Of a DNA stretch of 64,000 nucleotides, positions 3,341 through 54,277 are shown piece by piece; position 1 is the stretch's first letter, and every line of letters starts with the position of its first letter. This DNA comes from Hymenopellis radicata (taxonomy: Eukaryota; Basidiomycota; Agaricomycetes; Agaricales; Physalacriaceae). The notes under the pieces were generated by a model. It was not told the origin of the DNA, made no database searches, and worked only from the letters and a program-made list of their open reading frames with translations. Position numbers and translations under genes: made by a program. The stretch lies in NCBI GenBank assembly GCA_015501595.1, contig JADNRX010000104.1:62001-126000 (forward strand), in the 5' to 3' direction.

Positions 3341-3658
3341 ATGGCTGAAGAGACGACATCGAGGAAAAGACTGAAAGCCAGAAGAGCTTGACGAAGTCGG
3401 AGGCGACTACATGGATAACGAACATTGCCAAGAAGCTATCCGTTCTTTCCGACGCTCAGGCCAGAGAGCTTGAGAAGAAAATTACATCGTACGTCCATCA
3501 GCTCTGCGTCTTTATCATGCTAGAAAGCTTTTAGAACTCTGTCGCTCCGTCAGATTAAAGACACTTTCACCGAGCAACGGAAGATCGCCGTTGCCAACAA
3601 AACTGAAAATGTTACCTCGGATTTTCTCGCATGGGCGAATCCGCTCAAGACCGCTTAA
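3341..3658 (+). pseudogene. small two-exon gene paired with DUF6535 copy B (frame disrupted)
   Basis: Member of the small family found upstream of five DUF6535 genes. Exon 1 carries TTWITNIAKKLSVLSDAQ, matching TWISNMAKKVAALQSAQ of the 11.6-kb copy. An intron with donor GTACGT after Ile-Thr-(Ser) and acceptor TTTTAG near 3530 leads to exon 2, which starts TLSLRQIKDTFTEQRK and ends with FLAWANPLKTA, stop 3656-3658. The only nearby ATG (3341) is in a different frame from WITN, with a stop at 3346 in the WITN frame, so one base appears lost or gained at the N-terminus. It ends 287 bp before the DUF6535 start. Function unknown. Confidence 0.65.
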
Positions 3659-3898
3659 AGGAGTCTTAAAGGTATGCGCACATGTGACATACGTTGATTA
3701 GCTGAAATCCCACGTCACTTCTCGATCGCTTTCGCCGTACCATCGCACAATACGAATTGTTCTTCAGCGACTCATCCTAGCTCCTATCATACCGCCACAT
3801 TATCCGTTGCCCTTGTCAAACGGTAGCCGCTCCTTGAACGTTGAACAATTGGAGCTGTCTTATTATCTCCTGACCAACGTGTACGGAATCGGGATCTG

Positions 3899-3907
3899 TT
3901 ATAAGGG
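3899..3907 (+). promoter_or_regulatory. TATA box of DUF6535 copy B
   Basis: TTATAAGGG lies 46 bp before the ATG at 3945. TATA-like elements sit at comparable distances before copies C, F, G, H and I, which supports both the element and the chosen start codons. Confidence 0.6.
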
Positions 3908-3944
3908 TAACGTTGATGGCTGTATCCCCTCTCCATCTCCCCCC

Positions 3945-6900
3945 ATGCCGCTCGAATCAGCGTCGAATGCATCACGGACCAATGTCCAGTCTGCCTCGTC
4001 GTGTTGCCATTGTTGCCGAGGCTGCAGGTCGTCATCATCTGTTAACCAGCGAGACGATGGATTCCACTCTGATACCTCAACTGTCAATGAACCCGCCTTG
4101 GAAGATTGCAAAGACCATGGACGGACGCGTCACTCTCATGCGAAATTGCTGCGCAACAAGCACATATATCAACACCCAATTCTGACCGGTATGCTTCTTG
4201 ACCGCGGAAGCGTCATACCTTCCTGATCTCACCGTTTTGCTAGACGTGTTTGATTACGAAGATAAATACCCGCCGGATGACGAATTCAAAGAAATGTCCG
4301 AGACCGCTAGAGTCTTCAAGACGTACATGGACGAATGTACCAAGTTCGACTTGGACATGGTCGAAACTTGGAGGGATGGTCTGGACATGCTCCTCGTATT
4401 TGTAAGCCGCTTCCCGTGCCTGTATTATACGGCTGATACAGCTATGCAGGCGGCTCTGTTCTCAGCTGTTGTCACCGCCTTTGTTGTTCAGACTTACCAG
4501 AGTCTTCATGTGGACTACGCGCAAGTGACCGCGTCGTTGATGCTTCGATTAATCGACGTCCAGGTCGCCATTTTCAGGGCGCGTCCGTCAAGGAAGTTGG
4601 CCAGAACTCCGATCCAGCCACTTCCTTTAAGGCGAAATCGGTTGATCTTTGGATCAATGGTCTATGGTTCACTAGCCTTACTTTGAGCCTGACGACCACG
4701 CTGGTCGCGGTATTGACGAAACAGTGGATTAACGAGTACATGATCCTACCTCTGGCACTCCGCGAGACCGTTCTCGTATTCGTCACTTCCGGTTCATTGG
4801 ACTGCAGCAGTGGCATGTACCACTCATCATAGGATTGCTACCTGTTCTCATGCATATTTCGCTTGGTGTATTTTTCTCCGGTTTCGCCATCTTTCTTTGT
4901 TCCCTGAATGGTACCATGGCTGCCGTGCTGGGCGGCTTGACAAGTCTCGGCGCACTGGCGTATCTCCTCAGCAACCTCCTTCCGCTTTTTTATGCAAACT
5001 GCCCATACAAGACGCCTTTGGCGTTATACACCTTCAAGCTGGTCAGTTGGGTGCGCCGGCATATGAGGAAGTCATGTCGCGGGGCTCACGCGGTGATACC
5101 CCGTTCTCTGAAGGACGTAGAGCGTGTCGCCATCTCCCATCAGGAAGGGAAGCTAGACGCTTTAGCCGTTTCGTGGCTGCACAACGCGTCTTCCAATGCG
5201 TCTGTGCAGAGCATAGTCGTACAGTCCCTGGGGAGCCTTCCGCTGAAAAGCATCGACATCATCTCAGGACCCGATGGCATAACAGCTCCGGCGTCGGATC
5301 CCGCTGTGTGGCGTTTCCTAGATGTCATTGGAGGTGACGGTAACGATAAAAACCGGCCTGCTGTGATACGAGCTATACGAGCCCATCACCGTATTGACCA
5401 GCCTGTTGATCGTTTGGAACGAATGCAACGTGCCGCATTACGGTTTGGCAAGTTTTACATGGCCAATCGCGAACCTAACAAGTACGACTTTATCTATCAT
5501 CGGTCTCCCAAACGCTGCATCGACGTAGTCCGCCAGAGCCTACTCAGCGACGAGACTTCCCCCGATCCGGACACGACGTTCGATGTCGTGTTTTGGGGCA
5601 AGATCTTCGAGGCTGCACTGCGGCCTGGCCTGGAGTTCTTGGAGATAGAATCTCTGCGCGGGGATGGCCCGCTGTCTGCGGTCTGGTGCCAGCTTCTCAG
5701 ATGCGCCGTGCAAGACCATATCTGTCCCTTGTCTAATTGTGATGGCAACAGCCCGGCGCTCTTTTCCTATTCACTCGGGCCTAAACGGTTTCCTCTTGTC
5801 ATTAACCACTACGTTTGGAAGAGAATGGGGTTTCGCCAACTTTGTCTGATGCCTTGAAGAACAACATGCGGGCATCGTTCGTGAGATGGGTGGTCCACGT
5901 TGCCTTTCCTCATCTCTCTCAACCTGCATCCCGTTCTCCCCTGGATTATACCCAGCACGTCCCCGATGACATTGTCCTTGTCCTTGCTTTGCTCCAAACG
6001 CGGTCTGTTCAACTAACGTCGCGTCAACCCGAAGGTGACAGCTCTCTCTTCCGAAAGGTACTGGAGGTTGTTAGAGAGTACGTTTTCAACACTGGGCACT
6101 GCGGGAACCACACGAACGTCGACCGAGCGGCCATCTACGCGCTACGATCCGTTGTCAACTCTGAGGATTTCGGGACCGGTACTGTTATGACACTCGCGGA
6201 CGAGGCCTTCCTCGTCGAAGCCCTTTTCAGCGGATTGAACCGACGCATGGAGTTCTCTGGACCTGGTGATCGTGATGCTTCTTGGCTTACTCCCACGTTG
6301 TTCAACAAGATATGGGGCGTCGTATCCGCAGCGCCAAAGTCCAAGGATGTGCATAATGGCTGGAGAACAGTCGCCCATGTCTTTGCCTATGTATCACACT
6401 TCCCGACCCTTATGCACGAAACTGAAACGATATACTCGTATCTTCTGGACAATGACTGGTTGCGCGACCTGGGTCTCAGATTTTCTCGCCTTGCCAAATC
6501 CGCGACTCCAGAAACTGCCGGACTCCCAGACTATTGGTGTCCAGGCTACATATTCATCGCCGCGATCTACATAGACGTCTTGTTCAAACATCCCACTAGG
6601 ATCACGGAGGTGTTCAACGGCTCAAGGTCTTATATCAAGGACTCGACTAATCTATCGACACTCGCCCGAGTTCTCCTCGTCTCCGGCTGCGACACGCAGA
6701 ATCGGTTATGGCGGCTAGCGGAGATGTTCCAAGACACTTCCTGCGACTGGGCACAGTGCCTTGCGGACTTGGCTGAACTAGCGGCTTGCAAAGGTATCGA
6801 AGACGAGTATAAATTTGTCCAGTCCCTTTTGGGTGTGGATGTGCATGCCAACACCGTGGTACGTTATCGACCTGTCCAGGATCTCCCGCGTTGGTCGCGA

Positions 6901-7685: not shown

Positions 7686-10600
7686 TCACGCAGGGTTCTT
7701 TAGAGTTCCGTGCCGAAATCGTCTCCTCCAGTGCTCGAAAAAGCTCTGCTTTCTCGGCATTACCGCTGTTTCCGGAACAATAGCCTGGTGGGAAGCTCAG
7801 TCGAAGCCTTCTTTTGAACAGTGAATGGCATACCTTCATCATTGAGCACTCTATCCTTGCACATGCTGGGGGAATGAAATGACCGCGCCTAATATCCGTT
7901 GCGAACGTCGCCACCAAGGCGGCTAGCTCGTCAATGGGTCGATAATGCACCTCTCTGTTTCCATGAATAGTCACCGAAGCCAGAATCCTCACGTAGGCAT
8001 ATTCTTCTCCGACGCCGGGGCAAGCAGCAAGTTGAGATAGTTCCGTTATACAATCCTCCCATGAGTTACTCTCATTCACCATTCCTGCGAGGAGCCACAA
8101 CCTGCGCTGTGTATCGCAACCGGAGACTAGAAGGATCTTGGCGAGCGTTGCTAAATGGGCCGGCTCTTCCATATACTTCCTAGCCTTCCTCAAAATCTCG
8201 GAGGAGCTGCTAGTGTGCAAGGATAAAACATCTACATAGCTTACCGCGATCAACGTGTAACCTGGACACCAATGCGGGGATAGACCATCGACGTCTGGGT
8301 TCGTTGATCTGGCTAGGCGGGTGTACTCGACGCCAATGTCGTGCAGCCAGTCTTGTTCCAGCAGATACGCATATATCGTTTCAGTTGCGCCGATCTGGGA
8401 GGTGAAGTGCGACACGTAGGCGAAGACATGTGCAACCACTCTCCAACCCTTGCGCACACTATCAGATAGTGGTGCCGCAGAAACTACGCGCCATATCTTT
8501 TGGAATAGCGTCGGAGTAAGCCAAGAAGAGTGGCGAGCAAGAGGATCGCGGTTAAGAGAGCTGAAGAGAATTTCGATAATGAGAGCCTCGTCGGCCAGCG
8601 ACATAACGGTGCTCGAGCCAAAAGCTTCAGACTCAATGACGGACTGTAACGCAAAGATCGTCGCACGGTCGACGTACTTATGGCGCGCGCAGTCTTGCGT
8701 TCCAAAGGCATACTCATGCACTACATCCAAGACCTTATAGAAAAGAGAGTCATCCGGCGCATGCTGAAAAAGAGAGGAAGTAGCCTGTATGCATCGGGTT
8801 TGAAACAATGTGAGTACGAGGAGAATGTCGTCGGGAAGGTCTTGGGTGTAGCTTTCGAGTACCTGCTGCGTCTCTCGGGTACGGATAACATGGGGGAAGC
8901 TAACCTGAAGTAGCCATTTTACGAAGGATGGCCGCATGTTCGTCGATAAGGCATCGCGTAGCGTGGCCGACGTTCCGTTTTTCTCCAAAGAGTACCGATG
9001 AATGTGGAGTGGGATCTGGTCTTTTGGCGGTCCGAGAGAAAAGGAGAAGAGAGGCTCGTGGCCTTGCCGATCACAATTGGATGCAGTGCAGTTATGATGT
9101 CGAACGGCGCACTCCAGAAGCTTGCCCCATAGCGTCGGGGACCCTTCCTTAAAGGGAATGCCTATCTCCAGGAAATCAAGGCCTGACTGTAAGGCAGCCT
9201 CGAACACCTTGCCCCAAAACACAACGTCAAACGTCGTGTCAGCAGCGTTTCCTAGCAGACTATTACGAACAACGTCGATGGAGCGTTGAGGAGATTTGTT
9301 GTAGATGATATCATATTTATTCGGAGCGTGGCTGACCATGTCATACTTGCCAAACCGCATCGCCCCACGCTGAAGTCGTTCCAAACGGTCAACTGGCTGG
9401 TCAATGCGGTGGTGGGCTCTGATAGCCAATATGACTGCAGGCCTGTTCTCGTCCTTATCGTCGACAACATCAAGGAAACGCCACGTAGCGGGATCCGAAG
9501 CTGGAGCCCTTATGCCATCGGAACCTGTGATGACGCCAATACTCTGCAAGGGAAGACTTCCTAGAGACTGGACCTGATGCTCTGGACAGAAGCATTGGAA
9601 GATGCGTTGTGCAGCCACGAAACCGCCAGCGCATCCAACTCATCTGTTTGACGTGAGATGGCACTACGCTCTACATCCTTCAGAGAGCGTGATATATTCG
9701 ATTTGACCGTGTGACGCGACCTCCAAGATTCCAGACGCCGGCGGATACAGCTAATAAACATGAAAGAGTATAAGGCCAAAGGAGTTTTATATGGACAGTT
9801 GGCATAGAAAAGCGGGAGGATGTTACTGATGAGATATGCGAGAGCCCCAATAGCTGTCACACAGCTCAGTGCTATGGCCATGGTACCACTCAACGAACAC
9901 ACGAAGATGAGGAAACCAGCGAAGAATACACCAAGGGAGACGTGCATGAGGACAGGAAGAAGTCCGATAATGAGGGGTACATGCCACTGCTGAAGTCCAA
10001 TGAATCGGAAATGACGAATACGAGCACGATCGCGTGGAGTGCCGGAGGGTAGGATCATGTATTCGTTGATCCATTGTTTCGTCAGGACCGCGATGAGTGT
10101 CGTCGTAAGGCTTAGGACAAGACTTGTGAACCACAGGCCATTAACCCATAAATCGCCTGACGTCGCCCTGAATGAGGCGGAGGGGTTGGAATTCTGAACG
10201 AGTGGTGCAGGTTCGCCGTTGGAAATAGCCACCTGAATGTCGATTAACCGCAGCATCAATATCGTCGTGACTTCGGCATAATCGACATGAAGACTCTGGG
10301 AAGACTGGACGACCAGCGTCGTGACAACAGCTGAGAACAAAGCAGCCTGGACGACGTGCATCAGCGATCAGTGCGAACCTAATAAGAACATGCTTACAAA
10401 TACGAGGAGCATGTCAAGACCATCTCTCCAATTTTCGACCATGTCGAAGTCGAACTTGGTACACTCGTCCATATACGTTTCGAAAACCCTGGCTGTCTCT
10501 GACATCTCCTTGTATTCATCGTCCGGTGGGTATTTCTGCTCATAGTCGAAGGAATCTAAAGACGCACTATGTTCAGGAGCTGTATGACTGGTATAAACGA

Positions 10601-10882
10601 ATCGTTACCTGTGGGAACTGGATATTTGGGCGACCAATTTCGAAATAATTTCATATGAGAATGACGGGTCCTGCCATGGTATTCCAGGATAGGCCGGGCT
10701 GAGCGTCCGTATTCGGACGCGGTGTCGTTGACGGTCGAGGTGTCGGAGTGGAAGGCTCCGGCATCATCTCCCTGACTGGAAGGTGCTCCATGGCTTCGAC
10801 ATGGGCAGCATGTGCAATGCAGGATGTTAGGATTATTCGAGTCGTTGCTACGTGGAGCATCCGAGGGTGGCTCGCAAGGCAT
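7686..10882 (-). CDS. DUF6535 long-form protein C (one frameshift)
   Basis: Exons on the minus strand: 10882-10609, 10555-10398, 10346-7834 and 7784-7686. Start ATG 10882 follows a TATA box at 10930-10935 by about 50 bp and aligns with the starts of B and G. Exon 1 is Ser/Thr-rich; exon 2 has the SFDYEQKYPPDDEY and WRDGL signature; exon 3 begins AALFSAVVTTLVVQ and includes the membrane helices (LWFTSLVLSLTT, LTKQWINEYMILPSG, LLPVLMHVSLGVFFAGF, NCPYKTPLALY) followed by the large soluble region. The last exon ends FFEHWRRRFRHG. Around 9577 the frame changes inside the conserved ASVQSIAVQSLGSLP segment. The exon lengths sum to 3044, one base short of a multiple of three, which fits a single lost base. 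Function unknown. Confidence 0.85.
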
Positions 10883-11267: not shown

Positions 11268-11612
11268 CTAAGAAGCCTTGTACTTATCTGCCCATTTACG
11301 GAAGTCATCTCCAGTCGTTTCAGTTTCGGCAGTTTTGTTAGAAACCGCGAGTAGCCGTTGACTGCGAAAGTAGTCTTCGATGTCCTTCTTTGTTAGAGTC
11401 CTATGGCGAGGTCAGTGTGTCGAGTCACAAAAAAGACAGATAGCGTACGATCCAACTTCTTCCTTAATTATGTCGAACTGCGCACTCTGGAGAGCGGCTA
11501 CCTTTTTGGCCATGTTGGATATCCAAGTACGAGCCTTATCCTTCGCCATCGATTTCGTATTCTGGGGTGCTTCGCACTTATCTGTGGTGCCAGTGTCTGT
11601 TGACGTTGCCAT
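11268..11612 (-). CDS. small two-exon protein paired with DUF6535 copy C
   Basis: About 98 codons. Exon 1 from ATG 11612 encodes a polar, Thr/Lys-rich N-terminus followed by ARTWISNMAKKVAALQSAQ and FDIIKEEVG. A short intron begins GTACGC and ends CATAG; exon 2 reads TLTKKDIEDYFRSQRLLAV and ends TTGDDFRKWADKYKAS, stop 11270-11268. The related genes at 3.4, 42.2 and 53.6 kb keep the intron at the same place, with the acceptor codon followed by (T/V)(L/M)(T/S). No signal peptide or membrane helix is evident. The gene ends 386 bp before the DUF6535 start on the same strand. I do not recognise the family. Small, predicted soluble and helix-rich by eye. Confidence 0.65.
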
Positions 11613-11624
11613 CGCCTGGATGTC

Positions 11625-11907
11625 TCGATTATGGGTAGGGGGAAGGTTTGTTCAAGGCATGCTATAGGCAATGAAAAACAAGAGCCTTGAACAAGAGCAG
11701 GAGAGGTACCTTCATGAGCCCAAGAGTATAAGCACGCCGGACTGGTATGGAACAAGCAATGGGCGGGCTTCAACACTGTTGTTAGGACAGAATGACCGTA
11801 ACCAGTCCAGCTACAAGGCACACGGAGAACACAACAGCGCTACTTGTTCTAGGAAAGGCAGACATCAGCGCTTATCCTCGACGTTGTATCCAAATGCGTA
11901 CCATGAA
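11625..11907 (-). promoter_or_regulatory. conserved upstream block of small gene at copy C
   Basis: Reading the minus strand: GGTACGCATTTGGATACAAC (11902-11883), AAGCGC, GAACAAG-type words, AACAGTGTTGAA, GCTTATACTC and GCTCTTGTTTTTC, then the ATG at 11612. The order matches the loci near 3.1, 22.1, 42.6 and 54.0 kb. TATA-like CTTATACT is the likely core element. Inferred promoter. Confidence 0.55.
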
Positions 11908-14145: not shown

Positions 14146-15489
14146 TGTCGTGTAGAAGTTAACTGTTGTCGAAGGCCTCTCGTGGCACGCGTTTATATAT
14201 CCGAAGAGCAGGGTAAGTACGCGGCATGGTCGAAGTGTGGAACGGTGTAAGTAGTGCAAAGTGGTGGGAAAGAAGAAGGTACGTGTCACATCACGGTTAC
14301 GCGATTTTTTGTACCCTTGATGGTTGATAACGAACTGTGGCGCTATTTGTAAGAAAATGCTTTGTTTGGAATGAGGGAAGGAGGCGATGGAATTTACCTC
14401 CAGAAAGACATGAAGATGAGTTGTTGCCTGACAGTCACCTAGACCTATGGACGCGTACCTTTCCTTCAAAGAGGATAAGAAAGTGCTACGCGCTATTATC
14501 CTGTGGACTCACATACATTGATTACTGCGGATCCCCATCTGACCCGGTGCATATGCATGAAGGGACGATCTTTGGAGGCAGGGTTGTAGGGATCTAGAAG
14601 TGCCGGGACAGCATCAAAGCAATGTTCGAATGTCAGATGAACGGCCGACGCGGAGATATCAATGTGCGCCACAGTAGTAGTCCCGCCATACTACTGCACT
14701 TTGCGCTATACATAGCTATGCAGCGTGACCGTGATCTGAGTGCCGCCAGCGTCCTAGTTCCGGGAATTTGCGCAGACATCTGACCGCGTGTATACGGCCA
14801 CGGCTGCGCTGCTCCGACGGGAATGTTACGCCACAGATGGCAACCATGGAGTTTCCCGGGACAAATACACGTATAGGCTTCTTTGGGTTTTCGGCTACGT
14901 ATCGTTTGCGTAAATTTGAGCCTGATAATAGTGTTCGTCATGATATGCCTTCACAAAATAAATTCTGTAGCTGATATCAAGTGGAAGAGAATCAGAACGG
15001 CGCATACCGTAGCTGTGTATTACGTCGAGGCACTCTCTCGAGCTGTATCGACAATGAGCCCGAGTGCCATGACCAGGGATTAAGAGTCGTGTGGCGCAAT
15101 AGCATTCATACTGGAGGATTGTCGTAGTTTGATATCAAGGAGGGTATGCATGTTTGACCCACGTCATCTTCAGATGCGCAAGTAGAGTGCTAGATCCACG
15201 TCGCACTACACTTTGTTCATGTACTAATATGGACAAAAAAATTGCACTTACCCTTTCCTCCGAGTACGTCGTCCTTGGATTTCGAAGATGCCCTGCAGAT
15301 ACGAACATATGATGCTCTATGCGAATGGCATCATTTGTGGGTAAAATGCCACATTGATTCCACATTAGGTCAAAATATAGGTCACTACCAGCAGGTAGCG
15401 GCGCCTAGAGCCAGCACCAGGCTGGTACATTCTCGCATTGGCTCCTTGACTGTCATAAATCGGGTGCGATCCAGCTGCCCGAGACGCTA
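14146..15489. other. intergenic, no supported gene
   Basis: The first part is the 5' flank of gene D. The remainder contains only short unsupported frames, with no splice-linked coding pattern or repeat recognised. Confidence 0.5.
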
Positions 15490-15540
15490 AAATGCTATGA
15501 GCAAATAAAAATATGAGCCTGTTCTATGAATCATTCATTC

Positions 15541-38230: not shown

Positions 38231-38407
38231 TCAGCGGAGTTTTAAAACATGGGCTGCTCGATATCACTCTCTCATGAAGCGCAAGATCCAAGGGTCAGTA
38301 CAAGCTCGTCCTCGGGTACTTACACATGCTACGTATTCAACAAGTCCGGCTCGTACTTGTATTAAATCCTCGGAAAAGAAACTACTTCCAATTTCTTACT
38401 TAGACAT

Positions 38408-41696: not shown

Positions 41697-41746
41697 ACGG
41701 AAGAGAAAAGCGGTTATCACACACCTGACAGATACCATCATCCCTT

Positions 41747-41753
41747 CTTATAC
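41747..41753 (-). promoter_or_regulatory. TATA-like box of DUF6535 copy G
   Basis: GTATAAG on the minus strand, 51-57 bp before ATG 41696. The upstream in-frame ATG pair of this locus lies immediately after the box and is therefore an unlikely start. Confidence 0.5.
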
Positions 41754-42048
41754 TCCGGACATACCCACACTCACCCTGGGCCAACAATAAAATGGAGGCT
41801 AGGACCTCGAGTACGAGACCTAATTGTTACACTGTTTATCCGTCGGACGGCACACTGAAAGACAAAAGACACTCGAGAGTACAATAGTACATAGTATGTC
41901 ATCCTGTTAACTTAAGAGTAAATTAATGGTATCATAAGAAGTCGAGGAAGTGAGGGTAAATCCATCGTATCATATGAAGTCGGGGAAGCAGAGGGAACTG
42001 GAGAAAGTTAGCCAGATGCTGAAGGCTGATCCACTGCGCGTCAGGGCG

Positions 42049-42363
42049 TCATGGTCTCAGATCATTCGCCCAGGTGAGGAACGACATCCCATTCAATACA
42101 GGACCGCCGTGGCTGCCCGATGCCTCTGCTTTCATTTCGTAGTACGTTTCTATAGCTCGTCTCGTCATGACTCTGTGGCGTAGTCAACATCAACATCGTA
42201 ACAAGAACTAAGAATACACCTACGGTTCAATTTCCTGTGCCAGTATATCCAATTGGGAGGATGTCAAGGTAGATGTCTCTAGGGCGATATTGGATATCCA
42301 GGTCCGAGCTTGACCCAATGACATTGAAGGTCTCTGCCTTCTGTTTCTATTCTTCTTCGCCAT
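42049..42363 (-). CDS. small two-exon protein paired with DUF6535 copy G
   Basis: About 87 codons. Exon 1 from ATG 42363: basic start MAKKNRNRRQRPSMSLG, then QARTWISNIALETSTLTSSQ and LDILAQEIE. The intron (donor GTAGGTG, acceptor CCACAG) joins to VMTRRAIETYYEMKAEAS and ends NGMSFLTWANDLRP, stop 42051-42049. It shares TWISN, the spaced Gln-x-Asp-Ile-Leu, the intron position and the C-terminal F..WA motif with the 11.6-kb copy. It ends 353 bp before the DUF6535 start. No known family recognised. Confidence 0.6.
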
Positions 42364-42409
42364 CGCCGGGATGGTATGGGGTACGGATGAGTGGGAATGC
42401 TCAAGAGAT

Positions 42410-42920
42410 CAGCCATACTACGTTATAAAAAGGAGAAACAAGAGCGCAGAACAAGGGCGAGCAAGCAGCTAGAAGTATAAGGGTGCAAGACTAGTTGGGA
42501 ACAAACCAACCGAATTCAACACTGTTGTGAGGATATGATGTCCGTCACCGCTCGAACTACAAGGCGGAGCACGGTATGAAGGTTCGGCTTGTTCTGGAAA
42601 GGGTAGTAGTAAGCGCTTGTTTTCTATGTTGTACCCAAATGCGTACCATGAAAAGTGGCCTATCCAGCTTTCGGTCGCCTCTCAGCCCAAGCGTCGATAG
42701 GCGGCCTGTAGTATCAGAGAACGTTAAGCGAAAACCCGACGCTTAGAATCCCGACATGACTAGAGGCATTTGTGAGAAAATGCGCCACACATTGCGAATG
42801 GCAGGCGAAGAGATCTAACACGTAGAAATTATCGACGTGCGTCGGCATTGATATGTCATTGTTTTCTTGGCGTACTGGAAGAAATGCGAGGGACTGGCGA
42901 GGGACTGGAATTGTGGCTCG
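42410..42920 (-). promoter_or_regulatory. conserved upstream block of small gene at copy G
   Basis: Minus strand: GGAATTGTGGCTC reversed at 42907-42919, GGTACGCATTTGGGTACAAC at 42647-42628, CTTATACTTCTAG near 42475, GCTCTTGTTTCTCC near 42445 and TTTTTATAA just before the gene. Same order as in the other cassettes. Confidence 0.55.
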
Positions 42921-43487
42921 GCAGCAATATCGACTCCGATTGGCGCTAGACAATAGTCAAACGAGCGGCGTGTCCGAGTGGGATGTGACTAAAGACAAAA
43001 GGTGGGCCGAGAGGACCGAGGAGTCGGGAGCGAAGAACAATAACAAGCCTGGGCACATTGCCATGAATACAATAACACCAAAATGCGACTGTGTAGTTAC
43101 TCACCATTATGATGAGCATGATGCAAGCCACCAACAGACGGTACTTGGGTTTCTCTGTTGTTCATATTGCAGGAGCGTCAAGTCGAGTTTTACGAGTAAT
43201 GGGACATTCGTGGCCCTGTTGGCCCATTCCTAGAAATTGGAAGCGTTTTCGGTAGGCGCGGAGACATCTTAGGCACCGTCGAGTGTGCAAGGTAGGTTCA
43301 CTGACCAGTCTGACTGTGGTGGTAAAAAAGCAAGCGCATGATCGGCTTCGGGCCGGACAAGCCGGTTCGTAAATCTCACGACGATTGCCAGTAGCAGCCG
43401 ATGTCAACGATCTTACCTCTTACTATACAGTTCACCGCATAAAGTAGTCGCTGAGCTCCTTCACTCGCTAGTCAAGACTCAAGCGAC
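42921..43487. other. decayed upstream segment and 5' flank of F-box copy 3
   Basis: Carries the YCIHGNV-like text on the minus strand near 43.07 kb. A stretch similar to the 5' flank of F-box copy 4 (TGATCGGCTTCGG.CCGGAC, TATACAGTTC) shows that the whole segment was duplicated together. Confidence 0.4.
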
Positions 43488-44854
43488 ATGGAGGCCGCTC
43501 GCGACTCCAGGTCCACCGTCAATTGCGATTGTAAGTTGTCCTGAAATGATTCTTTGATACATCTCTGAATCCAGACATAGCCTACATCCTTCGCCTTCCG
43601 AACGAAATTCTTCTATTGATATTTGACGCGGTCAAGTCTGAGTCTACGTATAGTCTTGAACTCGCTCTTCATCGCCTTGCGGTTGTTTGTCGTCGCTTCC
43701 GTGACATGCTTGTCCGTGATTTGTATCGCGTTGTCTCCCTCCCGAAGCATTCATTTCAGGAACGACAACGTTCAGCTATGATTGCACTTCTTCCTTCACA
43801 CGGGCATCATATTCGCCGCCTTGAGGCTTCCGCTCCAGTACAAAGGCGCGATTGCGAGCCTGACGACGCTCAGGTTTCAAACCTTCTCCTCAGTCTCTCG
43901 CGCTGCGCGAAACAGTTTACCAACCTTCGATACCTCCAACTCCACCTCCATACGTCGGATAGGACGTTAACCATTGAACAACAGGCTGACCTTATCGAGA
44001 TGTTTAAGGTCCTGCCTCCTCGCCTGCAGGAGCTCGACCTGGTTGGCTTCTTATGGACAGGCGCCGCAAAGGCTCTAGCTGTCGCTCAGCAACCCAATTT
44101 ACAGCAACTTTTGCTCGACCTTGAGTCGATACCAGGCGCTTGGATGGCGCCGGCCAAATTAACAGCTAATTTCCCCGCTCTCTTGTCCATTCACATACCA
44201 GCCCGTTGGTGCCCTCAGACTCCCTGGTTCACCCAGGCTTTTGAAGGGTCGAAACTGGAACATATTGCGATTGGATTCGCGGATATTCCTGATATTTCTC
44301 GCAAGGAGCGTGATCTTCACCCGTGCTCGAGGGTTTGGCATTCCAGTTGTGAGTGGGAAACTGGTCTCAGGGACCTCTTTGTGGCATCCTCTTCATCTTT
44401 GACCAACCTGACCATCTCCACCATTTCGTTTCCCACCTTCAGCGTCGTTCATCACCTAAAACAGGTTACCGATATCACTTTCAAATACATAGATTTTGAT
44501 TGGGATGCACACCTCCTCGACCACCTTGTGGGACCGTTCGCGACTTCGTCGATCACGAGCTTACGTCTCGTTCGTTGCTCTGGAATTCCGCCGACGTTTG
44601 CGAAATGGTTCGAATACACAGGGGATTCTCGTCAGTTCTTTCCTGCATTGGAGGAACTCGAAGCTGGTCTGCTGTATACCCAGGGGGATGGGGAGGACTT
44701 CGACGATTGGCCCGAGGACTTACCAGCAGAAGAGGTCATTCCTGAGGGAGGCGACGTTTGGCAACCAGAGGTGCGGCGGAAGTTGGAAGAGGATTGTGAA
44801 ATGCTTGATATAGATGCAGACTTCGACTGGGACTGGTTTGAGGGCTGGGGCTGA
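43488..44854 (+). CDS. F-box/LRR-like protein, copy 3
   Basis: Exon 1 43488-43530 (MEAARDSRSTVNCD), intron with donor GTAAGT and acceptor TCCAG, exon 2 from about 43575 to the stop at 44852-44854; about 440 residues with no break. F-box-like start YILRLPNEILLLIFDAV and LAVVCRRFRDMLVRDLYR. Leucine-rich body with LTIEQQADLIEMFKVLPPRL, QELDLVGFLWTGAAKALAV and ITSLRLVRCSGIPPTFAKWF, then an acidic end (GDGEDFDDWPEDL, DADFDWDWFEGWG). It is the best preserved of the four copies. Divergent from the small gene of cassette G. Probable SCF substrate adaptor; target unknown. Confidence 0.85.
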
Positions 44855-45107
44855 AAGACATGAAGCTTTGAAGCGGAAGTGCCCTGATTGTAAGCATTGG
44901 ACAGCTATCAAGAAGGACAAAGTAGACAGGTGTAGGTAGAAGCCATACATGGCATCAATGCGAGTCATTCCACGTCCACGTCGTTTGCACGCAAAACGTC
45001 TTCCAAAGTCCCTTTGGCTGAGACAAGCATCGTTAGCCTGTTGAACATTGGCACTGAATCCAAGATGAGCGAAAGCAAGCTCACGAAGGGGCGGTCAGGC
45101 CAAAGAC

Positions 45108-45140
45108 AAAGTCTGGTTATCCCGTAACGCCAGGCGCCTA
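45108..45140 (+). repeat. direct repeat flanking DUF6535 gene H (left copy)
   Basis: GACAAAGTCTGGTTATCCCG followed by TAACGCCAGGCGCC recurs at 49250-49288 in the same orientation, where GTATTAGT is inserted before the AACGCC. The two copies bracket gene H. Confidence 0.55.
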
Positions 45141-45343
45141 CCGCACGGATGTTTGAGGAGTATATAGCTGCATCCTAAGGGGAAAAGGACATGGGCCATA
45201 CCTGTCCTTTTGCTTGGCGTTAGAGCCTCTTCGGAGAAACAAGACGTCGCATCGCATATGTACTAAAAACATGTAGACTGATGTACATATCGTGTAGAAA
45301 CTGTCCATGCTGGCCATGTATTTCGACGATAACTTACGCGACA

Positions 45344-48271
45344 TCACGGAAGGCATGAGTTCTTGTCCGCAATCATTTCCAGCGACTCTCTTTGGCGACC
45401 TTTCCCAAGCCAGGACCGCCTCCATTGATTAAGAAAGCCCTGCTTTCCTGGACGGTCATGTAGTTCCGGATCAATAACCTTTCCATCGACTCAGATTTCA
45501 CTAAAAATTCTGGATAAGGTCTCGAAAACGTACCTTGCTCTCCGACTTTACAGGCGTCGGGGGCGTAAAATGACCGCGAGAAATATCTGTTGCGAGCGCG
45601 TCGATTAAGGAGGGGAGTTCGTTCAAAGGCCGGAAATATACGGCCTTGTTCCCGTGTACGTCCCGGTGTACACATGAACGGACGCGATCGTACTCGTTTT
45701 CCACGCCTTGGCAAGCGACGAGTTCACATAGCTCATCGGTGAACTGGGACCAATTGCAAGCGTCGTTCCTCGACATCTTTACCAATCGCCACAACTTGTT
45801 CTGTGTATTCATGTCCGCAAGTAGAAGAATCTTGCCTAGCGTCGACAGATGCGCCGGCTCAACGATATAAGATCCGGCGGCTCGGAATACCTCAGAAGAT
45901 AAGGAAGCGTTATTGTGAAGAAAGAATCCGTCGATATACATCGCCGCCGTGAACATATAACCTGGACACCACAAGTCAGGGAGTTCGTAGGCTCCCGATT
46001 GGGCTGTCGGCTTCGAGAGACGAGACAGGTCCGCACCGATGTTCTGCAACCAGTTCTCCTTGACCAGGTACGCATAGATCGTTTCGACAGCGACGAGCTG
46101 GGTCGCAAAGTGCGACACGTATGTAAACACATGTGCGACCACAGCCCAACCGTCCTCCACAGCTCTAGATTCAAGCGATGCAGTGGTTAGCCGCCACACC
46201 TTCTGAAAGAGATTCGCAGTCAGCCAGGAGGAATCGCGATCCGAGAGCCCAGAGAATTCCAAACGGCGGTTCAGCCCGCTGAAAAGGATCTCCACAATGA
46301 AACCCTCATCAGCAAGCGTCAGGATATTGCCAGTACCAAAAGCATCAGACTCTATGACAGCTCGGAGGGCAAAGATGGCTGCACGGTCAGCGTCCTTGTG
46401 GTGCTCGGAATCTCCGAGATGGAGGGCGTACTTCGAAACTGCCTGTAATACATTTTTGAACAGACAATCATCTGAGGACGTTGCGTGAGCCGAAGAGGTA
46501 ACCTGGACAGACCGGGTTTGCAGCATCGCGAGAACTAGAAGGATATCATCCGGGAGATGCTGGGTATAGGTCGAGGCAGACCGTTCAACGTGGGCGAAAC
46601 CCACTTGTAGCACCCATCCCACAAACGAAGGTCGCATATTGGTTTTCAAAGCCTCAGATAATGTCGCTGAAGTCCCATTCTTCTCTACATCATAACGGTT
46701 GATGACGAGCGGGAAATTATCGGGCCCAAGGCAATATGAAAAGAGTGGGTGATCATTCCCTTCACAATCGCAGAAGTAACAGTCATGTTCTTGTATAGCG
46801 CATATCAGGAGCTGATACCAAACAGCAGACAGAGGTCCATCGCCATGAGTTGATTCTATCTTCAGAAAGCCAAGCCCTGGCCGCAGGGCAGCTTCGAATA
46901 CCTTCCCCCAGAATACGACATCGTAAGTCATAGCGGTGACGGATGGCTCGCCGAGAAGGCTACTGCGAATCACATTGATAGCACGGGCGGGGTTGTGATT
47001 GTAGACGAAATCGAACCGATTTAGTTCGCGGCTGAGCATAACATACTTGCCAAACCGCAACGCTGCACGCTGAAATCGTTCCATGCGATCAACCGGCTGG
47101 TCGAAGCGATGATGGACTCTTATGGCCCGGATGACTGCTGGCCTTCCTTCCTCTTCCAGATGGGCGACATCGAGAGTGCGGCATGTATCATATTCTGAAT
47201 ATGAAACCGGTGCCACTATACCCACAGGACCCGTAACGATCCCGATAGTGTGTAACGGAAGACTGCCCAATGACTGCAAGGCAACACTCTGAACGGAAAG
47301 ATTGGAAGACGTATTGTGTAACCAGGATACAGCGAGGGCCTCCAGCTCCTCGGCATTTTCTGAGATGTCTGCACTCTCCATCTCCTTCAACGAATAAGGT
47401 ATGGCTGATGATTGAGGCCAGCGACACGATTTCAAACAATCTACCCTCCTGCGAACCCAGCTGAGTAACATGAATGAGAAGGGAGTTTTGTATGGACAGT
47501 TTGCATAGAATAATGGGAGAAGGATGCTGGTGACATATGCGAGTACCCCGACGCTCATAACACAACCCAGCGAGGCGGCCATGGTGTTGTTCAGGGAGCA
47601 GAGGAATATAATCAGGCCAGCGAAGAATACACCGAGTGAAACGTGCATGAGAAATGGAAGGAGGCCGATGATAAGTGGGACACGCCATTCCTCTAGACCG
47701 ATAAATCTGAACTGACGAACGCGCGACGAGTCTCGTGGGGAGCGGTGTACTCATTAATCCACTGTTTCGCAAGGGCGGCGATCGATATGATAGTAAGGCT
47801 CAGCACCAAGCTGGTGAACCACAGCCCATTGAGCCAGAGGTCTGAGCGGTCGGGGCGGGAGGAGGCCGATGTCTCGGGTACGTTGTCAACCGACGTGCCG
47901 CGTCCCAGAGCACGCTGCACGCCAATCAATTCCGACATCAAGGACGCGACGACCTGGCTGTAATCGACGCGCAGCTTCTGACTGGCCTGTACGAGAAACG
48001 TGGACACGACTGACGAGAAAAGAGCAGCCTGCGTTTCAAAAAGAACAATTAGCATAGTGAACAATACCGTCTTGTTAAGAAATCTCACAAAAACAAGAAG
48101 CGTGTCGAGCCCGTCTCTCCAGTTAGCGACCATTTCATGGTCGTACTTCGTGAATTCGTCTACACAGGTTTTCCACACCCTGGCGGACGGCCCCATTTCC
48201 TTATACTCTTCATCGGGAGGGTATTTACATTCGTAGTCGAAGGCGTCGTGCACCGTATCCGAAGCATCCAT
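45344..48271 (-). CDS. DUF6535 long-form protein H (frame broken by a small deletion)
   Basis: Exons 48271-48089, 48028-45534 and 45478-45344. Unlike the paralogues there is no separate Ser/Thr-rich first exon: the frame begins MDASDTVHDAFDYECKYPPD directly, 74 bp after a TTATAA box. Exon 2 starts AALFSSVVSTFLVQ, then LWLNGLWFTSLVLSLT and LAKQWINEY. There several bases are missing (near 47738), removing roughly five residues and shifting the frame before RQFRFIGLEEWRVPL and LLPFLMHVSLGVFFAGL. The soluble region follows, with VHHRFDQPVDRMERFQRAAL. The last exon reads KQGFLNQWRRSWLGKG. No small partner gene or conserved upstream block was found. Function unknown. Confidence 0.8.
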
Positions 48272-48344
48272 GTTTGGGGGTGTACTTATGTCGCGGAGAA
48301 GATAAAAGAAGCGCGGGCGAAAGCCACTTTCTGTGGATGCGCTG

Positions 48345-48350
48345 TTATAA
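48345..48350 (-). promoter_or_regulatory. TATA box of DUF6535 copy H
   Basis: TTATAA on the minus strand, 74 bp upstream of ATG 48271. Confidence 0.45.
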
Positions 48351-48399
48351 TAGTATGATCGGACTCCGATTCCACTCCTTTTGTCCCGTTCGTCAACGC

Positions 48400-49790
48400 T
48401 TTGATGATTGTCTCGAAAGCAGAACAATCAAAAGGACGTTAACAATAAGGCCACATGCAGTGGTGTATCGTGACCTCAGATCTAGGGATCAGTTTGGCTC
48501 TTTATTCATGACACGAACAAAAGCACAAATTGGGAGGAGGTATCGCGCTGGAAACTCGCACTCAGCAGGCGATATTGGACAAATAGAGGACTCACTATAA
48601 CTATGATCTCCTCAATGCGTACACCGCTCGTTTTTCCTCCAGAAGTTCTCGCCAGGCCGAAAAGGCGCACACACCCGGCAGCAACGCGCGTCTGATCCAT
48701 GATCCAGTTTCCGTTAAGATGTGGGGCGACCGGTACAGTCAACGTCGCGTTGCATTCACGCTATTTGGCATTCGACCTAATGTGTGGAGGCGTAAACAGA
48801 ATAGCATCTCTATCACTTCCCCATGAGTAAAGCGACACGAAGCGGAGGAGGCTACGTACCCTCTTCAGGACCAATATAATAATGAAGAAGGCCGTCCATT
48901 TGGCAACTTGCGTTCGCCGCTGTTCCTTTTTGCTCTGCAGAGCTCGCCGAATCCACCTACAGCGCCCCACTGACCGAGTGCATCGCGAAAAAGCAGGCCG
49001 AGTGCGCCTGAGTCCTGCTTGTCCATGGCCGTTTATAGACAGCGTATGGCGCGCTTCACGCGTCCACGGTAGCCTTTATTCGGCCATCTAGCCAGAAGGA
49101 TTTGAGATTGATGGGGCGACGAGCGTACGAGGGGCCTTTTCCACAGCAAATGATAATGGCGAAATTCCTATATGTTTGTCAGGTAAAGACTGAGGCGCGA
49201 GGGCAACTCGGACTGAACAATCGCACCCAAAGAAAAGGCCTGTCGAAAGACAAAGTCTGGTTATCCCGTAGTATTAGTAACGCCAGGCGCCGGGGGCTGA
49301 ACGGATGACAGTGTCATTAATAGTTCGAGAGCATAAAAGCAACGCACCGCCAAGAACGCGTAAATAATCCTGGAAATGAACGAGAATTAGAGACCGGTGG
49401 TGTTTCCGGGCGACGTGTCAGCACAAGTCGTGGCCTAGCGAGGTGACGGCTTCCGCGAGAGGGGTTCTAGCAGACTAAGCAGAGCCTAATCTCAATAGCA
49501 TCGCGTCCTGCGAAGTTTTAAAATCCCTTTCATGGAGAATTTGTGTTGAGATCATGTTGAGATGGTGGAGGAGGCAAAGAAAGATGTGGTGACCGTTCGG
49601 AGTTTCAAAACGAGGCGTCCTTCCTGCCGGTTTACCGCTGCGCTCCGTAATACGTTCTTTAACTGATATGAGGGCCCTCTGGGCTCAAGCATCTTGAATT
49701 TTATTCATACAGTTATTCATGTTTCATTCATTCGAGTGTGTAACACTGCACTGTCCGTATTGACAATTCCCTCCTGCCTTGAGAACGGTG
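48400..49790. other. intergenic, no supported gene
   Basis: Holds the right copy of the direct repeat (49250-49288). A minus-strand frame near 48.6-48.74 kb was inspected and shows no resemblance to the small-gene family. Confidence 0.45.
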
Positions 49791-49827: not shown

Positions 49828-52800
49828 TTAAACGACATCGTCCGGAGTATCACGCCAAAATGATTTCCTCCATTGACGGAAAAAGCCAAGCTCTTTCGGA
49901 GAGGATTCAAGCCGTGGTTCCGGTTCCTCGATAATCTATGCGTCATACTGAGCAAGGATCCTGACTGCAATGCCTGAAAACTTACCTGACTGTGCGGAAC
50001 TACGTCCCTCGGGGGTGTGAAGTGCTCGCGCGCAATATCTTCCGAAAACGTCCCAACCAAGGAAGGTAGCTCGCTAATCGGGCGATAATAGAGGCGCTTG
50101 TTTCCATGACCGTCAAACTTCAGGAGGAGACGAACGAAGTCGTATTCGTTTTCCATTCCTGCGCAAGCGACAAGTTCAGACAAGTTCGAGACGCACTCCG
50201 GCCAATCGCAAGCCTTGTCGCGGAGTATAGACGCCAATTGCCACAGCCTGTTCTGCATGGCGCTATCGCTCAGCATTAGAATCCGGCTCAGAGCCGTCAA
50301 GTGAGCCGGTTCCGCGATATACTCCAGAGCTTTTCCAATGACTTCCGAAGACGAGGCAGTACGCGCAGCTAATACATCCAGATAGGTCGCCGCAATGTAG
50401 TTAGGACCTAGACACCACATCTCGGGAAGTTTGTCAATCTCTGGAGTGTTCGACTTCGAAAGACGCGCGAGCTTAAGCCCGATATCGTGTAACCAGTCAT
50501 GCTGCATCAAATACGTATATATCGTTTCCGTCGCGTTCTGTTGTGTGGGGAAGTGGGAGACATATGTGAAAACATAGGAGAGCACCTCCCACCCATTGTA
50601 AACGGCACTCGATTCCAACGCCGCAGTCGTGACGCGCCAGATCCGGATGAAAAGGTCAGAAGTAAGCCAAGAGGCGTTACCATCGTCAGGGCCACTGGGA
50701 AGCTTGTACCGGCGGTTAAGACCATAAAAGAGGAGTCGCACAATCATAGCCTCGTCAGGAAGGGACATGACTGTACTGGTACCGAAGACCTCCGACTCGA
50801 CGACAGCTTTAAGGGCAAATATTGCCGCGCGGTCAATGTCCTCATGTCGAATACACGTTCCAAGTCGTAAAATATAGTCTTTGACGGCATCCAATACTTG
50901 ACTGAAGATGCGGTTCCCATGCAGACTTTCTGGAAGTGAAGATGTGGCCTGGATAGATCGAGTTTGAAGCAGCGCGAGCACAAGGAGTATGTCGTCTGGA
51001 AGATGCTCGGTATGGTTCGAGATCGACCGTTTGACATGAGGGAAACCAACGTGCATCACCCATTTCACGAATGATGGCCGCATATTGGTACTCAAAGCAT
51101 TGGCTAACGTCGGTGATGTTCCATTGGTCTCTAAGTCGTACCGAGTCATGGCCAGAGGAAACTGTTCGGGTCCAAGGTAATACGAAAACAGTTCGCGATC
51201 GTGTATACCGTGGCAATTGGAGAAGGAGCAGTCATGGTGCTGCACAGCGCATTTGAGAAGTTGACACCATACAGGAGATGGAGGCGCGTTACCATAAGAA
51301 GACTCGATATTCAGGAAGTCCAGACCTGACTGCATAGACGCTTCGAGCAGCCTGCCCCAAAAGACGACGTCGAAGGTGGTGTCTGCACCAGAGGGTTGAA
51401 GCAAGCTGCTTTGGACAGCTTCTATGGCACGCTCTGGGGAATCGTCGTAGATGAATTGGTATCTATCCTGCTCCTTGTTGAGCATATTGAAGGCACCAAA
51501 TCGGAGAGCTCCACGCTGCATTCGTTCCATGCGATCGACGGGTTGGTCAAAACGATGGTGAACCCTGATTGCCCGTATGACTGCAGGCCTCTCCTCGTCC
51601 TCCTGAGAAACGAAATCAAGAAAACGCCAGGTGTCAGGGTTTGACACTGGCGCGGTTATACCGTCAGCTCCGGCGACAACGCCGATACTCTGCGGTGGAA
51701 GACCGGCCAGAGATTGCACAGCGATACTCTGGACGGAGGCATTGGAAGACGTGTTATGCATCCATGAAACGGCAAGCGCATCAAGATTTTCTGCCTGATA
51801 AGTAACAGCTGCGCGCTCTACGTCTTTCAAGGAACGAGCTATCACTGATGACTGAACCCGGCGGCATGCCTTCCAAGATTGTAAGCATTGGCGCACGGAG
51901 CTGACCATCCTAAAGGAGTATAAAGACAAGGGAGTCTTGTATGGACAATTGGCAAAGAAAAGAGGGAGGAGGTTGCTGATAAGATATGCAAGGGCACCAA
52001 GTCCGGTCACGCACCCTAGGGCTTTGGCCATAGCATAGCTCAAAGAACAGAGGAAGATGATAAAACCGGCAAAGAATACGCCGAGAGAGATGTGCATCAG
52101 GACGGGAAGAAGCCCAATGATGAGGGGGACGTGCCATTGCTGCAGTCCAATAAATCGGAAGTGGCGAATACGGGAACGGTCTCGTGGGGTGCCGGTCGGT
52201 AAAATCATGTACTCATTGATCCACTGTTTCGTCAACACGGCGACCAGTGTGGTCGTAAGGCTTAGAACAAGGCTTGTGAACCACAAGCCGTTGACCCAAA
52301 GATCGACTGATTTCGCCTGGAAGGAATCGGACGGGTCGGTGTGGTGACCAAGTTCGGCAACCAGCGCGGAAGCACCCTCAGATATGGCGACCTGGACATG
52401 GATTAAACGTAGCATCAGCGTGGCTGTCACTTGAGCGTAATCCACTCGAAGACTCTGGGAAGTCTGGACAACAAAGGTTGTTACAACACCAGAGAAGAGT
52501 GCCGCCTATTGTGATACTACATCAGCAGCGAAGCCGCTAGAGCGTGATCAGAAGAAACCTACGAATACAAGGAGCATATCGAGACCGTCTCTCCAATTTT
52601 CGACCATGTCAAAGTCGAACTTGGTGGATTCGTCCATATACGTTTTGAAGACCCTGCTTCTGTCGGCCATCTCTTTGTATTTGGCATCTGGTGGATACTT
52701 GTGTTCGTAGTCAAAAGGATCTATGAAAACACCAAGATCAGCTGCTGTATGGACTGGCTATACATGAAATATACCGCTAGGAACTGGGCGCTGAAGCGCA

Positions 52801-53042
52801 TGCTGATTGCGAAGCAACTTGGCATGAGAGTGGCGAGTGTTGTGATGTACAACGAGTGGGGGGGACTCCGTAACAGAATCGACGTCGTTGACGGTTGAGT
52901 TATCGGACTGCCAATGGAAGTTGGGGTCCTCTGCTTGATCAACAGAAGGCTTTGGGCATATGCAAAGGCAATGGCAGCATTGCTGGTGAGGACTAGACTG
53001 CTGCTGGATAGGAGGCGTACTCGCTGGTGGATCGGAGGACAT
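49828..53042 (-). CDS. DUF6535 long-form protein I, intact
   Basis: The only complete, unbroken long copy. Exons 53042-52775, 52720-52563, 52505-49986 and 49935-49828, 3054 nt, 1017 residues. ATG 53042 follows a GTATAAG box by about 50 bp. Exon 1: Ser/Pro/Gln/Cys-rich, ending with NTRHSHAKLL. Exon 2: PFDYEHKYPPDAKYKEMADR and WRDGLDMLLVF. Exon 3: about four membrane helices (AALFSGVVTTFVVQ, LWFTSLVLSLTTTLVAVL, IIGLLPVLMHISLGVFFAGF, LGALAYLISNLLPLFF), the CPYKTPLSLY border, then about 650 residues of soluble, mostly helical sequence without a recognised domain. Last exon: PKELGFFRQWRKSFW. The repeated W-(R/K)-x-(F/W) end of all copies suggests a conserved C-terminal element. Function unknown. 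Confidence 0.9.
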
Positions 53043-53088
53043 GGAGGAGGAGAAGCAAAGAAGAAGGGAACGGCAACACACCATCATT

Positions 53089-53095
53089 CTTATAC
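53089..53095 (-). promoter_or_regulatory. TATA-like box of DUF6535 copy I
   Basis: GTATAAG on the minus strand, 47-53 bp before ATG 53042, as in copy G. Confidence 0.5.
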
Positions 53096-53448
53096 CCGGT
53101 GACTGCGCCTATTATGGGCAAAATAACAAAAGCGTGCATTCCGGTGCATATAAGCAGTGCTAATTGTGGGTTTGCGTACTGTCATTCGACAGGAACAAAA
53201 GGAAACAAAACTCCGATTGGTAAACGGTCCGACAGCACGGTCTGAGAGAACTAGTCACTGAGTGACGAGTCAGTAAACACTTCCTCGTCTTTATCTAAGA
53301 AGTCATCGTTCGAGGCTCTATCGTTTAGTGAAACGCGACAATCAACGCAGGACCGCCCTGCGTTACATTACTTGGGGGTATTTGAAACTTCAGAACAAGC
53401 ATAGCCTAGCGCATCATCATAACGTGGATGTTCGAACTTGGTACGTGA

Positions 53449-53781
53449 TCAACGCCGCGGCGTGAGCTTCATGACCCACTGATGAAAAGCGTCTCCTGTC
53501 AACGCGGCATTACCAGCTCTCCCAGCGCCATTTCCTGCAGCGTCAAAGGTGGCCTTGATGACCGCCATTGTGAGAGTTCTACGGCGCACTTAGTATTGCC
53601 GAAAGGTGACAGAACCATCAACGTACGGGGCAATTATGCTATATAGTATATCGTATTGGTCTGAGGTCAGACTGCCCAGAGAGTTGGCAATCTTAACTAT
53701 CAGAGCATTAGCGGCGGCGACCGACAGTGCCATCATCAGGACGGGATAAATAAGTTGAAGGGGAAGGTTTGTCGAAGGCAT
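53449..53781 (-). CDS. small two-exon protein paired with DUF6535 copy I
   Basis: About 94 codons. Exon 1 from ATG 53781: MPSTNLPLQLIYPVLMMALS then VAAANALIVKIANSLGSLTS and DQYDILYSIIA. Intron of about 48 nt (GTACGT...CCGTAG), then TLTMAVIKATFDAAGNGAG and ALTGDAFHQWVMKLTPRR, stop 53451-53449. It shares the IAN.L..L(T)S.Q.DIL pattern, the intron position, TLT at the exon-2 start and the TGDAF..W end with the other small genes. Its N-terminus is hydrophobic (LIYPVLMMALSVAAANALIV) where the others are polar, so it might be secreted or membrane-bound. Ends 407 bp before the DUF6535 start. Confidence 0.6.
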
Positions 53782-53799
53782 CAACCATCCTCAGTTATA

Positions 53800-54277
53800 G
53801 GGGATGAGAAAACAAGAGTAGTGAACAAGGGCGGGAGAGGCAGCTAGAAGTATAAGCACCTAAAACAAGTTGGGAACAAACCAAGCGGGTTCAACACTGT
53901 TGTCAGGACGTGAGTGACGGTTGTCAGTTGTAGTACAAGGCGGGTTACCGTAAAAAGTTCGGCTTGTTCTGAAAAGGGTAGTAGCAAGCGCGTATTCTCC
54001 CAAATGCGTACCATGCGGTCCATGCCATCCAGCTTGCCGTCGATTCTCAGGACCATCTGGACACGGTCTGCAGTATCATTGCGCGCACAGGAGATTCAAA
54101 CGATAACTAGATGCAGAGAGTCCTGACATAACCGGAGGAGTTTACGAGAAACTGCGCCACACAACGCGAGTAGCAGGCGGCGAGTTCCGACGGATATAGA
54201 GTATCAGCATTCAGAATCGGCCTAGTATTGCCTGCTTGACGTACTGCAGGATATGCAAGGGAAGGGAATTGTGGCTC
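53800..54277 (-). promoter_or_regulatory. conserved upstream block of small gene at copy I
   Basis: Minus strand: GGAATTGTGGCTC reversed at 54265-54277, GGTACGCATTTGGG near 54012-53999, AACAGTGTTGAA near 53898, GCTTATACTTCTAG near 53860 and ACTCTTGTTTTCTC near 53815. Same order as the other four loci. Confidence 0.55.

Follow-up and report, generated by a model that had tools for sequence, protein, structure and literature searches.

A small two-exon gene paired with DUF6535 genes of one clade in Hymenopellis radicata, and its possible role in recognition

The 64,000-nucleotide window analysed here (contig JADNRX010000104.1, hereafter C47, positions 62001-126000) comes from Hymenopellis radicata, an agaric of the Physalacriaceae with a genome assembly of 75.5 Mb on 1405 contigs. 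It harbors repeated copies of a two-gene module, in which a small gene lies 5' and a DUF6535 gene lies 3' on the same strand. The product of the small gene has about 72 to 116 amino acids (aa); that of the large one, a DUF6535 membrane protein, has roughly 1000. The label "membrane protein" follows a first-pass annotation of this DNA and hydropathy; simple hydropathy on DUF6535 proteins gave two segments for P0007 and four, of which two overlap, for P0013. The anatomy of the module is well supported, and from it we infer a possible recognition step. Loci are designated below by W or L numbers, contigs by C numbers and public records by P numbers.

In the window, four loci (W1, W2, W4 and W5) each carry a small frame in two exons, divided by a GT-AG intron of 46-51 nt in phase 2. 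To guard against circularity, the profile used for the window scan was built from seven copies from outside the window only; L050, which is nearly equal to W5, was omitted. Allowing for splicing, both strands yielded 30,670 candidate peptides, among which W4, W2, W5 and W1 scored 122, 79, 59.5 and 56 bits, respectively. The best unrelated candidate reached 10.1 bits, and the other high scores came from alternative readings of these four loci. As controls, a scan of 68 regions gave a best antisense score of 8.2 bits and a best sense score outside the small-gene family of 8.1 bits. The Pfam DUF6535 scores of the partners are far over the 23.9-bit cut-off, with 150.9 bits for W2, 150.5 for W4 and 120.3 for W5, the broken W1 gene lying outside that scan. 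The eight genes are the following:

3341-3658, forward strand: W1 small gene, probably degraded; exon 1 to 3488, intron 3489-3534, exon 2 3535-3658 (56 bits, non-window profile)
3945-6885, forward strand: W1 DUF6535 gene with about three apparent frame breaks (frames 3, 1, 3, 2 and 1 along one protein)
11268-11612, reverse strand: W2 small gene, 98 aa; exon 1 11612-11449, intron 11448-11401, exon 2 11400-11268 (79 bits)
7867-10882, reverse strand: W2 DUF6535 gene with a single apparent frame break near 9575
42049-42363, reverse strand: W4 small gene, 87 aa; exon 1 42363-42224, intron 42223-42173, exon 2 42172-42049 (122 bits)
38566-41696, reverse strand: W4 DUF6535 gene with a single apparent frame break near 39.7 kb (public model P0010)
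53449-53781, reverse strand: W5 small gene, 79 or 94 aa (start at 53736 or 53781), intron 53626-53579 (59.5 bits)
50010-53042, reverse strand: W5 DUF6535 gene, open across its aligned length (public model P0008)

The first-pass annotation had placed a small gene before DUF6535 genes at five loci and an intron common to four of them. The four loci above and their shared intron are borne out, but the fifth, at 21.9 kb (W3), had been taken for a diverged member of the family and is rejected: it is missed by every profile, and the small protein hypothesized there has no match in the genome other than itself. The W3 gene itself is:

18153-20998, reverse strand: W3 DUF6535 gene, outside the clade defined below, for which no small gene of the cassette family was found

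The start proposed for the W1 small gene fares less simply. Its frame is conserved, with a readable stretch of 85 codons, which the ATG at 3341 does not share. One of the frame changes in the W1 DUF6535 gene is a possible intron.

Beyond the window, the pairing recurs across the genome. Searches of the own genome found 12 small genes on seven contigs (five on C47, two on C761, and one each on C202, C571, C629, C963 and C975). All 12 lie 5' of a same-strand DUF6535 gene of one clade, and all have a single phase-2 intron of 46-55 nt at the same position. DUF6535 (PF20153) is a large expanded family in H. radicata, with at least 151 matches. We sampled 60 upstream regions from the top of the DUF6535 score list, picked blind to the small gene; this sample is not random, some of its regions are near-identical, a few identical-scoring duplicates were omitted, and misses are possible in L025 and L059, which are clipped by contig ends. 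Only L050 and L066 carried the small gene. Protein searches, with an inspection of the other clade members, brought in the copies on C963, C629, C202, C975 and C571, and one at C47:59654. The last belongs to a further cassette, whose DUF6535 gene ends inside the window:

22-1263, forward strand: 3' end of a DUF6535 gene; its small gene lies left of the window at C47:59654-59928

The small gene is restricted to one branch of the family. In a search with the W2 membrane domain (150 of 299 candidates scored), 11 matches had at least 79% identity, after which identity fell to 65%. The small gene is present at 10 of these 11. The exception, L085 (C963:167714), has none in about 1.5 kb upstream, nor was one found nearby in genome searches. 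W1 and the C571 locus also belong to this clade, their domains being broken, so that the clade, which we call KQWINEY, comprises 13 loci. A small gene of the cassette family was found at 0 of the 58 other sampled DUF6535 genes, a search that did not extend to unrelated upstream small genes, and a general rule of DUF6535 with an upstream small gene is thus discarded. The Fisher value of 3e-11 counts related copies as independent and is not readable as a probability.

In a quick tree of 81 rows, 70 of them from the own genome and with C571 left out, the clade received a support of 99 in the Shimodaira-Hasegawa-like approximate likelihood ratio test (SH-aLRT). On the own-genome rows, the presence of the small gene requires two changes, such as a single gain plus a single loss; six would be needed if the rows of other species were scored as lacking it. 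In the simplest reading of these sequences, the pairing arose once, at the base of one DUF6535 clade, and was duplicated as a unit. The many copies would then reflect descent, and their repetition is not independent evidence. The earlier picture of a repeatedly duplicated pair is therefore to be narrowed: the pair is real and copied as a unit, but it belongs to one clade and one origin.

Proteins of other species also fall inside the clade, namely P0007, P0011 and P0012 of Mucidula mucida together with P0004-P0006, and some of them are closest to single H. radicata copies. The duplications thus probably predate, in part, these Hymenopellis and Mucidula species. SH-aLRT support was 97 for L066 with P0006, 92 for L085 with P0005 and 86 for the W4 group with Mucidula proteins, groupings that old duplication explains equally well. 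For the small protein, protein-level homologue searches returned H. radicata and one 1906-base record (P0003) only.

A single origin is also what would be expected if the small gene were a passenger, that is, a real orphan gene with a task of its own that sits beside DUF6535 through segment duplication, the pairing being functionally meaningless. We regard this as a serious contender, to which we grant a little less than an even chance. In several pairs, homology continues far 5' of the small gene, an F-box-like gene family repeats in the array too, and L085 is a clade member without the small gene. On the other hand, protein searches of the genome found no solo small gene, even though cassettes lie on seven contigs, and the upstream region of W2, described below, seems to have kept the pair together across a recombination point.

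Several lines of evidence indicate that the small frame is a gene of its own. Four of the 12 are annotated separately in public records (P0001, P0002, P0124 and P0125). P0001 and P0124 are identical residue for residue to the models that we had built beforehand, P0002 starts at a later methionine, and P0125 itself served to place the C571 intron. The same strand and the short distance within the window would also suit a small frame that is the 5' part of the DUF6535 gene, through alternative first exons or as an upstream frame. Yet a stop codon ends all 12 small frames, and TATAAGGG or TATAAGA occurs between the small gene and the DUF6535 start in 12 of 12 cassettes (about 0.6 kb from the start in L076; the motif is also found in a few other regions). 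The small domain is absent from the 120 DUF6535 homologues listed (of 143), some of which lack their N-terminus. With the separate annotations, these points make a 5' part extremely unlikely. Fusion of the two genes in other species was likewise rejected on the same 0 of 120; a further homologue search, with a wider small-protein profile, returned Hymenopellis proteins and a single other record only. The close spacing first described holds in the window, where small-gene end and DUF6535 start are 286, 385, 352 and 406 bp apart in W1, W2, W4 and W5, but outside it the gap is wider, about 1.1 kb long in L076 and about 1.9 kb long in L086 (C571).

Database comparisons gave no assignment for the product. 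None of the small proteins scanned against Pfam was above cut-off, the best E at a loose threshold being 0.026-0.14. In a sequence search of the PDB, the best E was 0.047 for the small protein, to a designed protein, and 0.86 for DUF6535.

Upstream of the small genes we observed a common element, CAACAGTGTTG, which precedes nine of the 12. Two more carry it with mismatches, L066 lacks it, and in most cases a TATA-like box follows. In the window it is found at these positions:

3173-3183, forward strand: CAACAGTGTTG element upstream of the W1 small gene
11771-11781, reverse strand: CAACAGTGTTG element upstream of the W2 small gene
42517-42527, reverse strand: CAACAGTGTTG element upstream of the W4 small gene
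53892-53902, reverse strand: CAACAGTGTTG element upstream of the W5 small gene

With at most one mismatch, the 16-base TAACAACAGTGTTGAA has 13 genomic sites. Nine of these precede small genes, and the five exact ones are all among the nine; the reversed control has one site. Several ACAAG/CTTGT boxes in both orientations also surround CAACAGTGTTG (e.g. 11612-11870), and these are perhaps sites for one regulator. In 59 of 66 pairs, the 235 bp upstream show more similarity than the small-gene exons, on average 0.66 against 0.51.

The upstream region of W2 is a mosaic. About 0.7 kb is 85-88% identical to L083/L084, ending some 50-65 bp before the start codon, whereas the small proteins are only 32-38% identical and the DUF6535 domain DNA 74%. 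Since a closely matching upstream region thus adjoins old paralogous coding genes, we read this as a putative recombination or conversion point that kept both genes together; the alternative is strong constraint on the upstream DNA.

Over the whole tree, the small genes evolve under constraint, as the first-pass annotation required of genuine genes. A codon model of 12 copies and 76 codons gave an omega of 0.56, with a log-likelihood (lnL) of -2384.28 against -2397.28 at omega 1 (2 delta lnL 26.0). When the broken W1 was removed, omega was 0.55 (lnL -2135.77 against -2147.78; 2 delta lnL 24.0), and for the W4, L077, L078 and L076 genes alone it was 0.50 (lnL -808.85 against -814.35). The transition/transversion ratio given by the codon program was 1.000. 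In the three older L076 pairs, divergence at third codon positions exceeds that at the other two, which is not so in most young pairs. These values bear on the idea that the frames are decaying and non-functional, open by chance after recent duplication. An omega of 0.9 in young copies and the out-of-frame start of W1 would agree with such decay, but omega is below 1 across the whole tree, mean exon identity among the 12 copies is 0.51, and a neutral simulation leaves 27% of frames open at 0.2 substitutions per site, indels excluded. We consider decay distinctly unlikely.

The small protein nevertheless changes faster than its neighbour. Among ten copies, with W1 and L086 left out, each of the 45 pairs has a higher rate of nonsynonymous substitution (dN) in the small gene than in an 83-codon membrane segment. 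In five young pairs, dN is 0-0.027 for the membrane segment and 0.02-0.25 for the small gene. The synonymous rates (dS) of the two are similar in four of these five. The pair L083-L084 illustrates this, with a dN of 0.254 and a dS of 0.213 in the small gene, versus 0.000 and 0.222 in the membrane segment. Judged from these comparisons, the small gene is coding and constrained over long times, and its protein is fast-changing by relaxed or diversifying selection.

A second contig, C761 (45,008 bases), resembles the right part of the window. Window 30000-38213 has its counterpart, in the same order, in C761:7082-13410; identity is mostly 85-97% and falls to 66% in an end piece. On the other side, C761 is collinear with window 54000-60000 at 93-99% and matches 52047-54790 at 95.8% and 48773-49661 at 91.9%. 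Across the 600 bases closest to the break, the C761/C47 flank has 97-99 matches per 100 bases. Between the flanks, the two contigs differ:

38214-48772, no strand: differing C47/C761 core with collinear flanks, mostly 85-99%, from contig comparison
45501-48427, reverse strand: W6 DUF6535 gene, small gene not found, where C761 has the L066 cassette

The C47 core of 10.6 kb contains the W4 cassette, an F-box-like relative and W6, whereas the C761 core of 16.9 kb (read in part) contains two other DUF6535 genes and the L066 cassette. At the right-hand break, W6 lacks a small gene on C47 and L066 has one on C761. In our judgement, C47 and C761 are very probably two haplotypes with differing cores, an allelism that we infer from one assembly. 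Such a haplotype-specific core would provide a concrete locus for testing recognition. The C47 flank also contains two repeats, 32657-33524 and 33960-34926, whose copies elsewhere are 95-97% identical on several contigs and 85-87% on C922. Both are skipped in the collinear C761 and thus look like insertions in one haplotype.

The fast-changing small protein and the two non-matching cores suit a role in recognition, and do so better than the first-pass annotation could know. We propose that the small protein would be a cytosolic partner of its own DUF6535 neighbour and would most likely bind the equally variable N-terminal tail of the latter. Through diversification and gene turnover, the partners would go on matching inside a module but not across haplotypes. 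The pair might thus act in recognizing non-self, be it a fusion partner or a parasite, and the membrane protein would be the responder. The highest 19-residue hydropathy of the small protein is 0.17-0.75 in 10 of 12 copies and 1.59 in W5 and L050. By this hydropathy measure, used without a dedicated signal-peptide program, neither an N-terminal hydrophobic signal nor a membrane span was found in those 10 copies. With no strong hydrophobic stretch there, the small proteins are probably cytosolic. Distances between small proteins correlate with those of the DUF6535 N-terminal tail (Mantel r of 0.74) versus 0.48 for the promoter and 0.38 for the membrane domain (nine copies). In the clade, these tails contain Cys/His clusters of the CCxC type (e.g. 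53042-52780) and a nearly constant RHSHAK or RRSHAK motif, which outside the clade was checked in W3 only.

Several observations weigh against this proposal. Eight of the 13 DUF6535 frames of the clade are apparently broken (W1, W2, W4, L050, L077, L078, L083 and L086), L085 is a clade gene without a small gene, and in the scanned cassette genes, which yielded DUF6535 only, no HET, NACHT or other recognition or death domain was found above cut-off. The young L083, L084 and L086 small genes have an omega of 0.90 with no difference from neutrality (lnL -592.20 against -592.27), which relaxed constraint explains too. The correlation with the tail may arise because both parts are fast-evolving and linked. 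For W4-L077, dS differs about four-fold (0.269 in the small gene, 0.069 in the membrane segment), against simple joint descent, a gap that hints at conversion of one gene. Finally, C761 may stem from a segmental duplication and not be an allele of C47.

Some of the frame breaks may be due to draft-assembly errors. The DUF6535 frames of W5, L066, L076, L084 and L085 are open as far as read, and one small gene (W1) is apparently broken; a rough count of breaks per kilobase showed no clear difference in preservation between small genes and their partners. Partner decay, together with copy-number growth and haplotype differences, could also point to a selfish killer-antidote or meiotic drive cassette, one product harming and the other protecting, whose copies spread and decay. 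However, broken-looking DUF6535 genes stand beside intact small genes and L085 is open on its own, so that neither partner seems strictly required in cis; the small proteins scanned had no Pfam match above cut-off either. A drive cassette is thus, in our view, very unlikely.

For the recognition role, or the paired-partner role put forward at first, the fast small protein and the differing cores remain the fitting evidence, but passive co-duplication is at least as likely. We put forward only tentatively, at clearly less than even probability, that the small protein partners its own DUF6535 in non-self recognition. A still narrower proposal sees in the array a locus for somatic incompatibility (allorecognition) in a mushroom-forming basidiomycete, at which a non-matching small protein and membrane partner would trigger a response; this appears unlikely from these data. 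Were it true, each haplotype would carry its own small-protein/DUF6535 pairs. Either way, a fast-evolving neighbour gene offers a first handle on the possible role of one DUF6535 branch.

The F-box-like family that repeats in the array has 75-85% DNA identity among 15489-17798, 35798-38129, 43328-44859 and 55173-56622. A PF12937 match lies in 36797-38083, and the open reading frame 43616-44854 has no Pfam match. At W4 and W5, an F-box-like gene is seemingly head-to-head with the small gene. Elsewhere in the genome, five DUF6535 matches on C99, C455 (twice), C596 and C828 have identical score, length and open frame, and may be copies borne by a mobile element.

We compared the cassette with known systems. 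Like other PF20153 proteins, its large genes match the Pfam model well above cut-off; unlike the family at large, a small gene was found only in the 13-locus KQWINEY clade. In the papers searched, we found DUF6535/PF20153/IPR045338 only as a table entry among down-regulated genes, in PMC12387923. The het-B locus of Podospora anserina (PMC10890737) likewise consists of two adjacent genes with one large and one small product; these are highly divergent between haplotypes, as the cassettes of C47 and C761 would be. In het-B, which controls incompatibility, a HET domain, a lectin fold and a PII-like protein are present, whereas no such finding was made for the cassette, which is multi-copy and basidiomycete. 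By analogy, het-B is a functional parallel, not a relative. Ascomycete incompatibility loci are described in PMC8229728 as polymorphic, with trans-species polymorphism and balancing selection; the cassette is known from the sequence of one assembly. The same source describes non-self recognition as poorly understood in basidiomycetes. A variable core and species-crossing lineages, which the H. radicata cassette may have, would fit the pattern of the ascomycete loci.

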